Shown: in pieces, positions 54,150-61,044 of the stretch
Layout of the letters: each line of letters begins with the position of its first letter
How positions within the stretch are numbered: the first letter of the stretch is position 1
Source of the DNA: Tychonema bourrellyi FEM_GT703
Lineage (GTDB): Bacteria; Cyanobacteriota; Cyanobacteriia; Cyanobacteriales; Microcoleaceae
Assembly (NCBI RefSeq): GCF_002412335.2
Contig: NZ_NXIB02000003.1
Coordinates: 5,741-69,740 of the forward strand
Length of the DNA: 64,000 nucleotides
Reading direction: 5' to 3'
Notes under the pieces: model-generated
Told to the model about the DNA's origin: nothing
What the model saw: the letters and a program-made list of their open reading frames with translations, nothing else
Databases searched by the model: none
Made by a program: the position numbers and the translations under genes

Positions 54150-56615
54150 TTAAACGCTCAAAGCGAGTTCAGGTAATTTGGGTTCCGATGAATCACCGGG
54201 TAACACCTTCACCACACCGTTTTCATCCACATCCACGATCGCACTTTGGCCTTCTTTCAGCTTACCAGACAACATTTCCTCAGCCAGTACATCCTCCAGC
54301 AATCGCATAATTGCGCGTCGCAAAGGCCTCGCACCATAACTGGGATTGTAGCCTTCTTTAACTAACAGTTCCTTGAATGCTTCTGTCACAGACAAGGTAA
54401 TATCCTGTTCCGTTAAGCGGGTGAAAAGCTGCTGCAACATGATATCCGCAATCTGCTTAACTTCTTCCTTATTCAACTGGCGGAAGACGATAATTTCATC
54501 CAAGCGGTTGAGGAATTCGGGACGGAAGAACTGTTTTAATTCTTCGTTTACCAAGTTCCGAACGCGGTTGTATTGACCATCTGCGGCATCTTCAGTAAAC
54601 TCAAAACCGAGACCACCGCCGCCTTTTTCAATCACTCGCGAACCGAGGTTGGAAGTCATAATCAGTAGCGTATTCTTGAAGTCAACTGTCCGACCTTTGG
54701 CATCAGTCAATCGGCCGTCTTCTAGGATTTGCAGCATCATGTTGAAGACATCCGGGTGCGCTTTTTCGATTTCGTCGAATAAGACTACTGTGTAAGGACG
54801 ACGACGGACTGCTTCTGTTAGTTGGCCGCCTTCATCGTAGCCCACGTAACCCGGAGGTGAACCGATCAGTTTGGAAACCGTGTGGCGTTCCATATACTCG
54901 GACATATCTAACCGAATCATCGCGTCTTCGGAACCGAAGAAATAAGTTGCTAAAGCTTTTGTTAGTTCGGTTTTGCCGACGCCTGTGGGGCCGGAAAAGA
55001 TGAAACTGGCGATCGGGCGATTGGGATTTTTCAACCCTACCCGCGCGCGACGGATGGCCTTAGAAACTGCGGTGACAGCTTCTTCTTGACCGATTAAACG
55101 CTGGTGCAAAGTGTCTTCCATGTGCAGCAGCAATTCCGATTCCGATTCTGTCAGTTTGCTGACTGGTACTCCCGTCCAATTCGCCACGATGTGGGCGATG
55201 TCTTCTTCGGTGACGATGGGAGAGATTCTGACTTGGCTTTTGTTGATTGTCGCTTCGGCGATTTCGGCTTCAATTGCTAATTCGCGATCGCGCAATTTGC
55301 TAGCTTTCTCGAAGTCTTGTTCCCGAACAGCGATATCCTTTTCTTTGGTGACAGCCGGCAGTCGTTTTTTGAGTTCTTTAACTTCTGGCGGGGTTTGCGA
55401 ATTCAGCACATGAACGCGGGAACCTGCTTCGTCAATTAAGTCGATCGCCTTGTCGGGCAAAAATCGATCGTTAATGTATCTGTCTGACAGTGTAGCCGCT
55501 GCTTCTAAGGCTGCATCGGAAATCGTCAATTTATGATGTTGTTCGTAAGCCGATCGCAAACCATACAATATTTCGATCGTTTCAGCCACACTCGGTTCGC
55601 CAACTTTTATCGGTTGGAAACGCCGTTCTAGGGCTGCATCACGTTCGATATACTTCCGATATTCATCAAGCGTAGTAGCGCCAACACACTGCAATTCGCC
55701 TCTGGCAAGTGCTGGTTTAAGCATATTGGAGGCATCCATACTGCCTTGAATAGCTCCTGCACCAACTAAAGTATGAATTTCATCAATTACCAGAATGATG
55801 TTGCCTGCTGCGCGAATTTCCGCCATGATTTTCGTCAGGCGTTCTTCAAATTCCCCACGGAATTTTGTCCCTGCAATCAGCGAACCCATATCGAGGCTGA
55901 TTACTTGTTTGTCTTCCAAAATTTCCGGGACGTTTCTGTTGACAATCCGCTGGGCGAGTCCTTCGGCGAGGGCAGTTTTGCCTACTCCCGGTTCGCCGAC
56001 TAGCACGGGGTTATTCTTGGTGCGACGGCCGAGCACTTGAATGACGCGCTCGATTTCGTTTTCGCGGCCCACGACTGGATCGAGTTTACCTTGGGCGGCT
56101 AACTTCGTGAGGTTTGTGCCAAATTCTTCTAAAGTCGGGATTTTGCGATCGCTACTTTGACGGCCTCCTGAAACCGCCGCCACTTCTCCCACGGCACGAA
56201 TTACCTGGGTGCGGACTCTAGAGCGATCGATCCCCAAGTTTTGTAGCACTTTAGCGGCGACACCTTCATCGTCCTGAATCAGTCCCAACAAGATATGTTC
56301 AGTGCCGATGTAATTGTGGCCCAACTGCCGCGCTTCATTCAGCGCCGTCTCAAAAATCCGCTTAACGCGAGGCGTAAACGGAATTTCAGGCGGTAGAAAA
56401 CCCGATCCCCTACCGATGATATTTTCGATTTCATTGCGCGCCTCTTTCAAGTTGAGGCCCATTTCCAGTAAGACTTTTGCAGCGATGCCAGTGCCTTCGC
56501 CCACAAGTCCCAACAGGATTTGCTCAGTGCCCACAAAATTATGGCCGAGGCGACGCGCTTCCTCTTGGGCTAGCATTATTGCTTTAATGGCTTGTTCTGT
56601 AAAGCGTTCAAACAT
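54150..56615 (-). CDS. clpC: ATP-dependent Clp protease ATP-binding subunit ClpC
   Basis: 821 residues from the ATG at 56615, giving the standard [20 protein letters not shown] start; the frame runs 22 codons upstream. Two Clp-N repeats (about 1-150), AAA1 with [15 protein letters not shown], a UVR-like middle ([12 protein letters not shown]), AAA2 with [16 protein letters not shown]. The last domain ends in [23 protein letters not shown]100 unfoldase that feeds ClpP in cyanobacteria and plastids; the adaptor-interacting M segment is present. Monocistronic in this window. Confidence 0.97.
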
Positions 56616-56984
56616 ATTTTTTACCATCCTACTGAGTTGGCGAGGGCTGTATCGCTGCTGGTGAGGAGCGATTTGGAACAATACACAAATTATATATGTA
56701 AATTTTTGTGTATTTCCTACAATCTAATTTATCGCTGCTGATGATATGCCGACAATGAGGATAGCCGAATAGTCGAGGTGTGGTTGCCGTCCGACACAAA
56801 TATACACTGATTGAGGTTAAGTTGTCACCCGCGATCGGTAACAAACGCCCTTTTCAAATTGTACCGGATCAAAGGCGCTGTCAAGATTAACTGTTGTTTC
56901 CGCTCCGCCTAAAAATAAGTAGCCGTTAGGCCGTAACACTTGTCGCATCCTTACATTTGCGTACATCTGCGGTTTTACTCTTCT
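56616..56984. other. Gap upstream of clpC with a CheR remnant
   Basis: 369 bp: the clpC leader (56616-56815, A/T-rich, contains TATATATG and TACAATC sequences that may be promoter elements on the minus strand) and the CheR-like fragment at 56817-56948. No complete gene. Confidence 0.6.
56817..56948 (-). pseudogene. C-terminal remnant of a CheR-type methyltransferase gene
   Basis: The minus strand reads MRQVLRPNGYLFLGGAETT, then NLDSAFDPVQFEKGVCYRSR and a stop. This is the end of the CheR SAM-methyltransferase fold (Gly-Tyr-Leu-Phe-Leu-Gly strand before the final helix and strand). About 43 residues remain; the frame is closed upstream by a TAA near 56975, next to the M56 gene stop. The N-terminal 230 residues are missing, so it is a deletion relic, not a small gene. 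Confidence 0.65.
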
Positions 56985-57980
56985 TTATTCCCCATAGTTT
57001 TCGCCAGCAACCTTACCCCGAAACACAACATAGTTATAGATGTTGTATAAAATCATAATCGAGATCGGAATGCCAATAAGCACGATCGTAAATACCAGAG
57101 CGCTGGGAGCCGCTGGATACATCGTGATTTGTGTGGGAATAATGTTGTGAAACGGAACAGTTACTAAAGGTAAAAGCGTTAAAACCAACCAAATCAAAAA
57201 CCACTTATTCGGTTTTGGTGGCGTTTCTGGTTCTGCCAAAAGCGCCTCTATTCTCTCTCCCAACCTATTTGGCAATCCGACAGCCCCAACCACGCAATCT
57301 ATCTCAAAATAGTGGTGCGGATAACTCGCGACTAACAGCAAAGCTTCTGCTAATAATAAAGAATCGACGCCCGCCGCAGCTTTGGCATCAGCCCGCAATT
57401 CCCGCAGCGTCAATAACTCTTCCCACAAAGCCTGAGTATTCGGCAGCCAAGCTGTGATTTGCCGCAGCCATCCCAACCAAAAAAAAACGAATGTATCGCG
57501 ATAATAATAGTGCGCTTGCTCGTGGGCAATAACTGCTTCGAGATGAACTCGATCCAAGGTTTGTAACAACCCCATACTGACTACAAATTCGGGCGACCAA
57601 AAGCCAATTATAGCAGAAAACAAAGCTGGGGTATCCATAATCTTGACGGTGGTTCCAGCTATTTTTTGCTGAGGATAATCGCGAATTTTATTGACCAATA
57701 AACGGCCGTCTACCGCTAGCCTGATGCCTGAAAATGTGGCTTTTCCTAAAAAAGCTGCGGCTAACAAATAGCTCAACCATCCGTCCCAGAATCCTACCAT
57801 TTGTCCTTTAGTTCCCATGCTAAAAACTGCGATGGATGTTACGAGCAATAGCAGTGGGGAAAATAGAAATAACAAGAGCGATCGCTGCCAGCGCTGGGCC
57901 CAATTTCCTGTAGGATCGGACCAGGTGATTCTGAGATAGCAACCGAGACTTAGTGCAACTGTAATTAGGATTAAGTGCAT
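56985..57980 (-). CDS. M56 (BlaR1/PetP-like) membrane metallopeptidase with CydB-like C-terminal tail
   Basis: 331 residues. Transmembrane helices at about 1-15, 33-55 and 68-88; zinc motif HEQAH (His153, Glu154, His157) in AVIAHEQAHYYYRDT. Further helices (about 255-280) precede an unusual tail, residues 280-331, ending LYNIYNYVVFRGKVAG. This tail matches the last 54 residues of the adjacent CydB at about 39 of 52 positions by eye, so the gene carries a fused copy of the cydB 3' end. Overlaps the BlaI stop by one base (TAATG). In Synechocystis the equivalent BlaI-M56 pair (PetR/PetP) controls the plastocyanin/cytochrome c6 switch by repressor cleavage. Confidence 0.9.
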   Translation of the reverse strand: MHLILITVALSLGCYLRITWSDPTGNWAQRWQRSLLLFLFSPLLLLVTSIAVFSMGTKGQMVGFWDGWLSYLLAAAFLGKATFSGIRLAVDGRLLVNKIRDYPQQKIAGTTVKIMDTPALFSAIIGFWSPEFVVSMGLLQTLDRVHLEAVIAHEQAHYYYRDTFVFFWLGWLRQITAWLPNTQALWEELLTLRELRADAKAAAGVDSLLLAEALLLVASYPHHYFEIDCVVGAVGLPNRLGERIEALLAEPETPPKPNKWFLIWLVLTLLPLVTVPFHNIIPTQITMYPAAPSALVFTIVLIGIPISIMILYNIYNYVVFRGKVAGENYGE

Positions 57981-58408
57981 TATTGCTGCTCCTCCCTAGC
58001 TTGGCGAACTGCTTGAATGCGAAGAGCAATCTCTGCTAATTGTTCGACGGTTGCTTGGTCAAGACTGTCAGCAAATGCTGCTACGATATCGGGGTTTCCT
58101 ACTGCTAGGAATTTCTGCAAGCGATCGCAAGCAAAAATTGCTTGAGCTTGTTCGCGAGAAACTAAAGGTTGCCAAACAAATGTCCGCTCTGTTTTGTCGC
58201 ACACCAGCCAACCTTTGTCTGTCAAGCGTCGCAGCACTGTTGTTACTGAAGCGTAAGCCAATTCGCGATCGGGATCTGACAAAATGCGATCGTGCACGTC
58301 TTTGACTGTAGCACAGCTTAGTTCCCAAACAATATTCAAAATCTCTGCTTCCAAAGGGCCGAGAGAAAGTTGTTTGGGACGGTAATTGGGCAGAGGATTC
58401 ATAGGCAA
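57980..58408 (-). CDS. BlaI/MecI/CopY family transcriptional repressor (PetR-like)
   Basis: 142 residues. Winged-helix block LSLGPLEAEILNIVWELSCA, TVKDVHDRIL, AYASVTTVLRRLTDKGWLV, typical of BlaI. The C-terminal dimerisation half includes FLAVGNPDIVAAFADSLDQ. It lies directly before and overlaps the M56 gene, the arrangement of protease-inactivated repressors. Likely targets are its own promoter and electron-transport genes by analogy with PetR; cydBA lies immediately upstream on the same strand, 171 bp away, so a regulatory tie is possible but unproven. Confidence 0.9.
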   Translation of the reverse strand: MPMNPLPNYRPKQLSLGPLEAEILNIVWELSCATVKDVHDRILSDPDRELAYASVTTVLRRLTDKGWLVCDKTERTFVWQPLVSREQAQAIFACDRLQKFLAVGNPDIVAAFADSLDQATVEQLAEIALRIQAVRQAREEQQ

Positions 58409-58579
58409 TTAACAATTTCAATCTTTGTAGTAAGGATTTCAGTGCTTAAAAGTAATTTTCGGAGTGCCACCCTAACTGCAAATTTTCTTTTAGATTCTTA
58501 ACAGTGGAACGGGCCGGAGAGCCCGTTCTTGAAAATGGTGCAAGATGTGAGTTCAAATGCAAAACAGCTTATCCTTCCC

Positions 58580-59593
58580 TTATTCGCCGTAGTGCCCCCC
58601 AGCAACTTTACCCCGAAACACAACATAATTGTAGATGTTGTAGAAAATCATAATCGGGATGAGAAAGCCAATGAACACAATCATAAATACCAGGGCGCTG
58701 GGCGAAGCTGCGGCTTGGTAAATCGTGACTTGCGAGGGAATAATGTAGGGAAAAACAATCAATCCCAAGCCGATGAAAGTGAGCAAGAAAATCAAAATTG
58801 TCCAGACAAACGGCGTGCGTTCTTCTTGGCGATCGAGACTTCTAAGCAATAGTCCAATTAACAGCACTCCCAGCAAAGGAATCGCCGCAAAGACATAAAC
58901 TAGCGGTTTCTCGAACAACCTGGATCTAGCACTTTCATAAAAAATCGGAGTGGCGATCGTAATTAAGATTGCTCCGATTAACGTCGTCACCGCCGCAATT
59001 TTAGCCGTGCGATAGTGAGTTGTCTGTAGTTCCCCCTGAGTCTTCATAATCAGATAGGTTGAACCAATCAAAACGTAACCTTGAACTAGCGTCAAAGCAA
59101 CTAATATCGATCGCCAATCCAGCCAATCCCAAGTAGTACCGACAAAATGCCCAGTTGCATCAACAGCAATGCCTTCGAGCACCGCACCCAGCGCAAATCC
59201 TTGAGCTAAAGCTGCCAAAAAACTGCCGGCACCGAAGGCATAATTCCAAAATAACTTCCGATTAGAATGCTCGCGAAATTCAAAAGCTACAGCCCGAAAT
59301 ATCAAGCCAAAAAGCATCATCATAATCGGGATATACAAGGCCGTTAAAATCGTGCCATAAGCGAGGGGAAATGCGCCAAATAAAGCGCCTCCCATCAACA
59401 CTAACCAAGTTTCGTTAGCATCCCAAACATTGCCCAAACTGGTCATTAAAATGCCCCTGCGTTCGTCGTCTGAGGCAGTCAGAGATAAGATTCCTACGCC
59501 TAAGTCAAAACCGTCTAGCATGACGTAGAGCAATAGAAACAAAGCCAAAATTACAAACCAAACTTGCGGGAGAAAATGCTCCAAAGCTTGCAT
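58580..59593 (-). CDS. cydB: Cytochrome bd quinol oxidase subunit II
   Basis: 337 residues, about nine transmembrane helices. Opens LEHFLPQVWFVILALFLLLY then VMLDGFDLGVGILS, the CydB signature, with NVWDANETWLVLMGG following. The end (about 284-337) is the segment duplicated into the M56 gene. With CydA it oxidises plastoquinol or ubiquinol-type quinol and reduces oxygen in the thylakoid or cytoplasmic membrane. 8 bp downstream of cydA. Confidence 0.96.
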   Translation of the reverse strand: MQALEHFLPQVWFVILALFLLLYVMLDGFDLGVGILSLTASDDERRGILMTSLGNVWDANETWLVLMGGALFGAFPLAYGTILTALYIPIMMMLFGLIFRAVAFEFREHSNRKLFWNYAFGAGSFLAALAQGFALGAVLEGIAVDATGHFVGTTWDWLDWRSILVALTLVQGYVLIGSTYLIMKTQGELQTTHYRTAKIAAVTTLIGAILITIATPIFYESARSRLFEKPLVYVFAAIPLLGVLLIGLLLRSLDRQEERTPFVWTILIFLLTFIGLGLIVFPYIIPSQVTIYQAAASPSALVFMIVFIGFLIPIMIFYNIYNYVVFRGKVAGGHYGE

Positions 59594-59601
59594 AAAATCT
59601 C

Positions 59602-61044
59602 CTATTGTTGTGCTTCTGCGGGACGGCGATCGGGAATGTGCTCTGCGGGTTCAGTTTCGATTGCTGGTTGATTGTCTAAACCAGGAATCGGCAGATTTAA
59701 ATTAGGGCCTTTGCGGATAATTCTGCTGCCAAAATACAAGGCGCAAATAAACAAAAAGCTGTAAACAACTGCAAAGAAACTGAGGGAAGTTAAAACATTG
59801 CTAGCGGGGATGTTTGACACTGCGTCAGCCGTGCGAATTTGCCCGTATAAAGCCCAGGGCTGTCTGCCGACACAGCGGACAATCCAACCCGATTCTACAG
59901 CAATATATCCCAGTGGCGCTGCTAATATCCAAGCGCGCATCAGCCAAGGTTGAGTGCTAATATTTTCAGCGGAAAGTTTGCCTCGACTCCACTGAATTAT
60001 ACTAAATAGCATCAATCCTACAAAGAAGAATCCAATGCCGGACATGATGCGGAAAGAATAGTAGATTAAACCGACCATCCTGGGTCGATCTTCGGGTTTC
60101 CACTCTTTTAGTCCGAGGACTGGTTCGGAGAGTTTTTGTTTGAATTCTAGAACGTATCCTAAGCCATTAGGTACGGTGATTTCCCAGTCGTTTTTTTGAG
60201 CTTTTTCATTAGGTAAAGCCATTAAAGTCCAATCTGCTGAACTTCCCGCTGGGGAGGTTTCCCATTTAGCTTCGATGGCGGCTAATTTTGTCGGCTGATA
60301 GTGATAGACTTGTTCGGCGCTCAAATGTCCGATGAATATCTGCAAGGGTGCAACTGCGATCGCCGTTGCTATGGCAATCTTTAAAGATTTGGAAAAAAAG
60401 GATTCGTTGCGTTTATTCAGAATGTACCAAGCGCTAATTCCTCCAATCACAAACAAGGAAGTTTCTAGCGTCGCAAAAAACATATGGAGAATGCTGTTTA
60501 ATGCGAAGGGGTTCATAATTGCTTGAAAGTAATCGCTGACAATAAACTTGCCATTAACCATTTCTCCGCCGGCGGGAGTTTGCAGCCAAGAGTTAGCGAC
60601 TAGAATCCAGACGGTTGATAGGTTTGCGCCGAAGGCTACCATGATTGTAGCGAAATAATGGACGATCGGGTGAACGCGCTCCCAACCAAACAACATAATT
60701 CCTAAAAAGCCTGCTTCTAGCATAAATGCCATTGAAGCTTCAAAGCCTAAAATGCTGCCAAAAAAGTCACCAACAGCTTCGGAAAATGGCGCCCAATTTG
60801 TGCCAAATTGAAATTCCATTGGAATGCCGGAAGCTACCCCAATGCCGAAGTTTAGGACATAGAGTTTAGACCAAAAACGAGCATGATGGTAATAGTCAGG
60901 ATTGCGAGTTTTCAGCCACATTCCTTCAACAATTACCAGATAAATTCCCATTCCAGTAGTCAAAACTGGCCACAGCATATGAAATATGGCGGTTAGCGCA
61001 AATTGCATCCGGGATAACGCCAGGGTGTTAGATAAGATATCCAT
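59602..61044 (-). CDS. cydA: Cytochrome bd quinol oxidase subunit I
   Basis: 480 residues, about nine helices. Heme-ligand His in SRMQFALTAIFHMLWPVL; GRQPWALYGQIRT is the CydA signature near the b595/d site. A short Q loop (about 250-330, containing WETSPAGSSADWTLMALPNE) marks the cyanide-insensitive type. Heads the cydAB unit; a Shine-Dalgarno-like AAAGGAT lies upstream. The C-terminus (PGLDNQPAIETEPAEHIPD) is a variable hydrophilic tail. Confidence 0.96.
   Translation of the reverse strand: MDILSNTLALSRMQFALTAIFHMLWPVLTTGMGIYLVIVEGMWLKTRNPDYYHHARFWSKLYVLNFGIGVASGIPMEFQFGTNWAPFSEAVGDFFGSILGFEASMAFMLEAGFLGIMLFGWERVHPIVHYFATIMVAFGANLSTVWILVANSWLQTPAGGEMVNGKFIVSDYFQAIMNPFALNSILHMFFATLETSLFVIGGISAWYILNKRNESFFSKSLKIAIATAIAVAPLQIFIGHLSAEQVYHYQPTKLAAIEAKWETSPAGSSADWTLMALPNEKAQKNDWEITVPNGLGYVLEFKQKLSEPVLGLKEWKPEDRPRMVGLIYYSFRIMSGIGFFFVGLMLFSIIQWSRGKLSAENISTQPWLMRAWILAAPLGYIAVESGWIVRCVGRQPWALYGQIRTADAVSNIPASNVLTSLSFFAVVYSFLFICALYFGSRIIRKGPNLNLPIPGLDNQPAIETEPAEHIPDRRPAEAQQ

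Follow-up and report, generated by a model that had tools for sequence, protein, structure and literature searches.

The PetR/PetP pair, encoded in Synechocystis by slr0240/slr0241, controls petE and petJ in the copper response. PMC7896320 describes the Synechocystis pair as a copper-dependent switch between plastocyanin and cytochrome c6. A probable counterpart lies in the window, by which we mean the whole 64,000-nucleotide stretch of Tychonema bourrellyi FEM_GT703 DNA that was analysed. As in Synechocystis, a BlaI-family repressor gene overlaps a gene for a BlaR1-type membrane protease, and the likeness is strengthened by the copper genes mbnP and mbnH, which adjoin the pair in relatives. 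The copy here differs in that its protease carries a 52-residue CydB-derived extension, and in that the pair, which lies directly behind cydAB, has lost its usual promoter along with the operator-like site. The features of the locus are as follows:

54150..56681, minus strand: clpC, the downstream neighbour (named from sequence and established knowledge)
56820..56947, minus strand: relict of the 3' end of a CheR-like gene (Pfam CheR match below cut-off, E=0.044)
56948..56984, minus strand: cydB 3' flank of about 37 nt (AAACCGCAGAT..), half a hairpin, absent behind the adjacent cydB
56985..57143, minus strand: cydB-derived tail, residues 280-331 plus stop, adding one predicted transmembrane helix (about 292-318)
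57145..57146, minus strand: join of petP and cydB fragment, with few shared bases
57144..57980, minus strand: core of the M56-type protease (probable petP), residues 1-279, with HEQAH zinc motif at 153-157 and conserved PFH end
57980..58402, minus strand: probable petR, a BlaI-family repressor gene that overlaps the start of the protease gene
58418..58579, minus strand: cydB-petR intergenic stretch of 162 nt, replacing the usual petR promoter and containing a dispersed short repeat
58580..59593, minus strand: intact cydB
59602..61044, minus strand: cydA

The probable copper regulator and its lost promoter

The repressor matched the Pfam profile Penicillinase_R with 99 bits, and its gene overlap with the protease gene is the pairing expected of such systems. 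The protease has an HExxH motif, helices in its structure model, and residues H153, E154, H157, E194 and D198 that are invariant in 28 relatives. Its score was below the Pfam cut-off for Peptidase_M56 (23.2 bits against 31) and above that for Peptidase_M48 (27 bits against 20.3), and we therefore call it M56-type by context. It was the only BlaR1-type protease of its kind found in this genome. This uniqueness, the gene pairing and the copper-gene neighbours in relatives suggest that the pair is probably the PetR/PetP copper-responsive regulator.

In relatives, petR and the mbnP-mbnH pair are normally oriented divergently, and the interval between them contains a conserved TGTCAAATGACnGnnTGTCAAA site (L032:2244-3461, L036:4413-5579) that is a candidate PetR operator. 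Here, homology to relatives upstream of petR begins 15 nt before the ATG, and the PetR-type site is absent from the window; a search of the whole genome returned a single two-mismatch site, no better than the control. There was also no match to mbnP in this genome, which is 92.5% complete. The pair here has thus lost both the conserved promoter site and the mbnP/mbnH neighbours, a rearrangement of its upstream side. In one near relative, UBA9251 (G015), a one-mismatch TGTCAAATGACnGnnTGTCAAA copy (L133:2229-2248) immediately precedes a DsbD_2/ferric-reductase-like gene that lies two genes upstream of cydAB, hinting that PetR may control genes adjoining the copper-free oxidase; another near relative, UBA11344 (G014), shares this site. 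A search of the accessible literature found nothing on PetRP together with MbnP and cydAB.

The protease-CydB join

The final 52 residues encoded by the M56 gene (56985-57980, minus strand) match the C-terminus of CydB, encoded 1.5 kb away. The alignment of tail with adjacent cydB that the preliminary description had proposed was run by blastn and gave a single match of 174 nt, with 139/174 positions identical (80%), one in-frame gap of 6 nt and E=3e-42, while blastp of the protease against the adjacent CydB found 46/77 identities across residues 257-331 (E=9e-24). The match of residues 280-331 to the CydB end, the same orientation of the two genes, the stated coordinates (56985-57143) and the roughly 39/52 identities counted by eye were thus all confirmed. 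Similarity had also been said to run through both stop codons, and this is accurate for the adjacent gene, where the alignment terminates on the TAA stop of each copy, but the cydB-like stretch continues about 37 nt further when it is compared with cydB of relatives.

The extension corresponds to the last transmembrane helix and C-terminus of CydB (cytochrome bd subunit II), and its 52 residues are clearly homologous to the CydB end in the genus. It differs in being the last segment only, with nine replacements that are unique to it and a deletion of two residues, and it does not amount to a complete subunit II, covering Pfam profile positions 260-302 of 302 with 9.6 bits against a cut-off of 35.6.

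In every relative that was read, the protease stops at about residue 279-296, and in the nearest species directly after the conserved PFH motif. The two nearest relatives, the MAGs UBA11344 and UBA9251, have proteases that are 89% identical to this one and stop right after PFHS; they match the window from 58417 to 57146 with 91% DNA identity, and this homology ends exactly at 57146. Window position 57145/57146 therefore marks both the end of homology to the M56 genes of relatives and the start of homology to cydB, and the bases held in common with cydB at the join are only TTTC.C.ACATTATTCCC. The tail was sought in 62 genomes of the family and 293 at the level of the order, 232 of the latter with the protease. 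Among the matches listed, a stop-free match to residues 1-331 came from this genome only, and no other M56 gene with a CydB tail was found, so that the fusion, which the preliminary description suggested looking for in related genomes and whose tail on other M56 genes it named as a refutation, was not encountered again. Longer protease alignments in other genomes were rejected as tail cases, having stop codons inside the alignments, and petRP was not found in one relative (G018). Since relatives stop at about residue 279-296 and the sole stop-free match among those listed is the one here, the tail was gained in this lineage, and the proposed extension of an M56 gene end is borne out, with the ancestral end at residue 279. 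An invariant histidine (H278), a possible metal ligand, ends the protease family, often at most one residue from the stop (window 57144-57167).

It is very unlikely, in our estimation, that the join is an assembly chimera absent from the living cell. The genome is a draft of 271 contigs, and assembly N interrupt the cydB 3' end of the near relative G015 (L133:6824-6830), an area that may be hard to assemble. However, the join shares too few bases with cydB to be explained by an ordinary k-mer misjoin, there is no N in the window, the reading frame of the tail is open, and the tail has unique changes absent from the cydB genes of the genus. Apart from the self-match, its sole match in the genome is the adjacent cydB, with 80% identity, so that it has no close counterpart there. 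The join is very probably a real, lineage-specific gene fusion, and it illustrates cleanly how a membrane protein can acquire a helix when its gene reads on into a piece of a gene for another membrane protein.

Origin and fate of the tail

The cydB-derived block is larger than the protease tail, spanning 56948-57145. In several relatives, cydB matches it through the stop and about 37 nt beyond (to 56948), and this flank (AAACCGCAGAT..) corresponds to the first half of a hairpin that follows cydB in those genomes; the adjacent cydB lacks it. The preliminary description derived the tail from a duplication of the adjacent gene's 3' end; this origin, followed by fast divergence, we consider rather unlikely. 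The two copies do lie in the same orientation, 1.5 kb apart and 80% identical, and the flank may have been lost later from the adjacent gene, as G014 and G011 still retain it behind cydB. However, dS between tail and adjacent cydB was 0.60, against 0.11 between the adjacent cydB and that of the nearest species (G014), and at 13 of the 15 synonymous differences between tail and adjacent cydB the tail has a state that other cydB lineages also show, against an expectation of about 52% (p=0.006). At two diagnostic residues, the tail has TQI, as in other lineages, and the G000/G011/G014/G015 group has SQV. The tree from this short alignment left the tail unplaced, and AU tests of its placement all gave values of 0.21 to 0.48, with grouping with the adjacent cydB unrejected (p=0.21). 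Apart from the tail, no second full cydB was found in this genome. The flank, synonymous distance and diagnostic states indicate another cydB lineage, the tree alone being undecided, and the adjacent gene is not supported as template. The tail is thus probably not a fresh copy of its neighbour, and with the tree and AU results as they are, a source in a different cydB lineage is favoured, not proven. The cydB of G014 (G014:C105:4550-5546; L100, L137) gave two overlapping matches with stops between them, possibly because of a frameshift or a misassembly.

On this lineage, the protease core has 12 nonsynonymous and 16 synonymous changes (ratio 0.23), and petR has 6 and 12 (ratio 0.15). The changes specific to the tail number 9 nonsynonymous and 2 synonymous (ratio 1.33), small counts in a tally that leaves out synonymous changes shared with other lineages; core and tail differ in these counts (Fisher p=0.037). 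None of the nine tail replacements occurs in 28 cydB genes of the genus, and the tail is altered at residues that are invariant among genus CydB proteins. In the structure model, pLDDT was mostly 80-90 in the core and mostly <50 in the tail, with a helix at 292-318; hydropathy likewise indicates a hydrophobic helix, so that the added CydB transmembrane helix is predicted, as had been claimed, by hydropathy and a low-confidence model.

That the protease uses this helix to sense the bd oxidase or dock to it, as had also been suggested, strikes us as highly doubtful. The frame is still open despite the 6-nt deletion and about 27 substitutions, the hydrophobic helix is retained, and petRP lies behind cydAB here and at most 3 kb away in several relatives. 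Against such a role stand the replacements just described, with their ratio and their positions at CydB-invariant residues, the absence of purifying selection, the poor model of the tail, and the lack of a second case among the matches listed from the 232 order-level genomes with the protease. We give very little credence to the related idea that a protease with an oxidase helix is tethered to the bd oxidase, or has its C-terminus moved across the membrane, with sensing rewired in one lineage. By sequence, the tail gives no sign of CydB-like constraint. We conclude that the tail is tolerated on a functional core; the fusion resembles a scar left by DNA exchange and now drifting, not a built sensor. 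If the tail were functional, copper sensing would be linked to a copper-free oxidase, and the evidence here is against this.

A proposed seam between exchanged and resident DNA

The two sides of the tail have different closest relatives. The cydBA genes are closest to G015 (95.5%; G018 90.3%), and clpC is closest to G018 (97.1%; G015 90.7%). Because the tail sits between the cydAB-petRP side and the clpC side, we read it as marking a recombination seam. The CheR-like relict in front of clpC is also present in G018, the nearest backbone relative, with 97% identity. In several relatives of the genus, pieces resembling this relict occur within a few kb of clpC. The cydB gene is also found on plasmids of Nostoc, Pseudanabaena and Trichormus, and transfer is therefore plausible.

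We lean, somewhat better than evenly, towards the view that the 3' end of petP was joined to a cydB piece of foreign lineage at such an exchange seam, leaving an extra helix that drifts near neutrality and is tolerated. Illegitimate recombination would have joined the probable petP end, in frame, to the final 52 codons and 3' flank of a cydB from a lineage different from the one now adjoining, and the seam would separate an exchanged cydAB-petRP block from the resident clpC side. Homology-facilitated illegitimate recombination is a mechanism of naturally transformable bacteria. A possible route is transformation with a homology anchor in cydAB and a short-homology join at the other end, for which the name homology-facilitated illegitimate recombination is used (the term occurs in PMC6382021). 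The locus resembles that process in its discordant ancestry on both sides and its short-homology join; it differs in that the mechanism is here inferred from the discordance and the join rather than from donor and recipient states. A single exchange of this kind would explain why the tail is xenologous, why the orientation is shared, why the flank was kept and how petRP arrived. Its product would be a working protease core with one additional membrane helix of nearly neutrally drifting sequence. The end of the ancestral protein already lay just past a membrane helix, which may be why the extension was tolerated.

Several points count against this seam model. The tail is short, has no placement in the tree and gives the AU value noted above for grouping with the adjacent cydB; the cydAB/clpC discordance can come from separate exchange events; and no relative examined has cydB beside clpC. 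As it stands, the locus shows shuffling of petRP, cydAB and copper genes among Microcoleus-like species.
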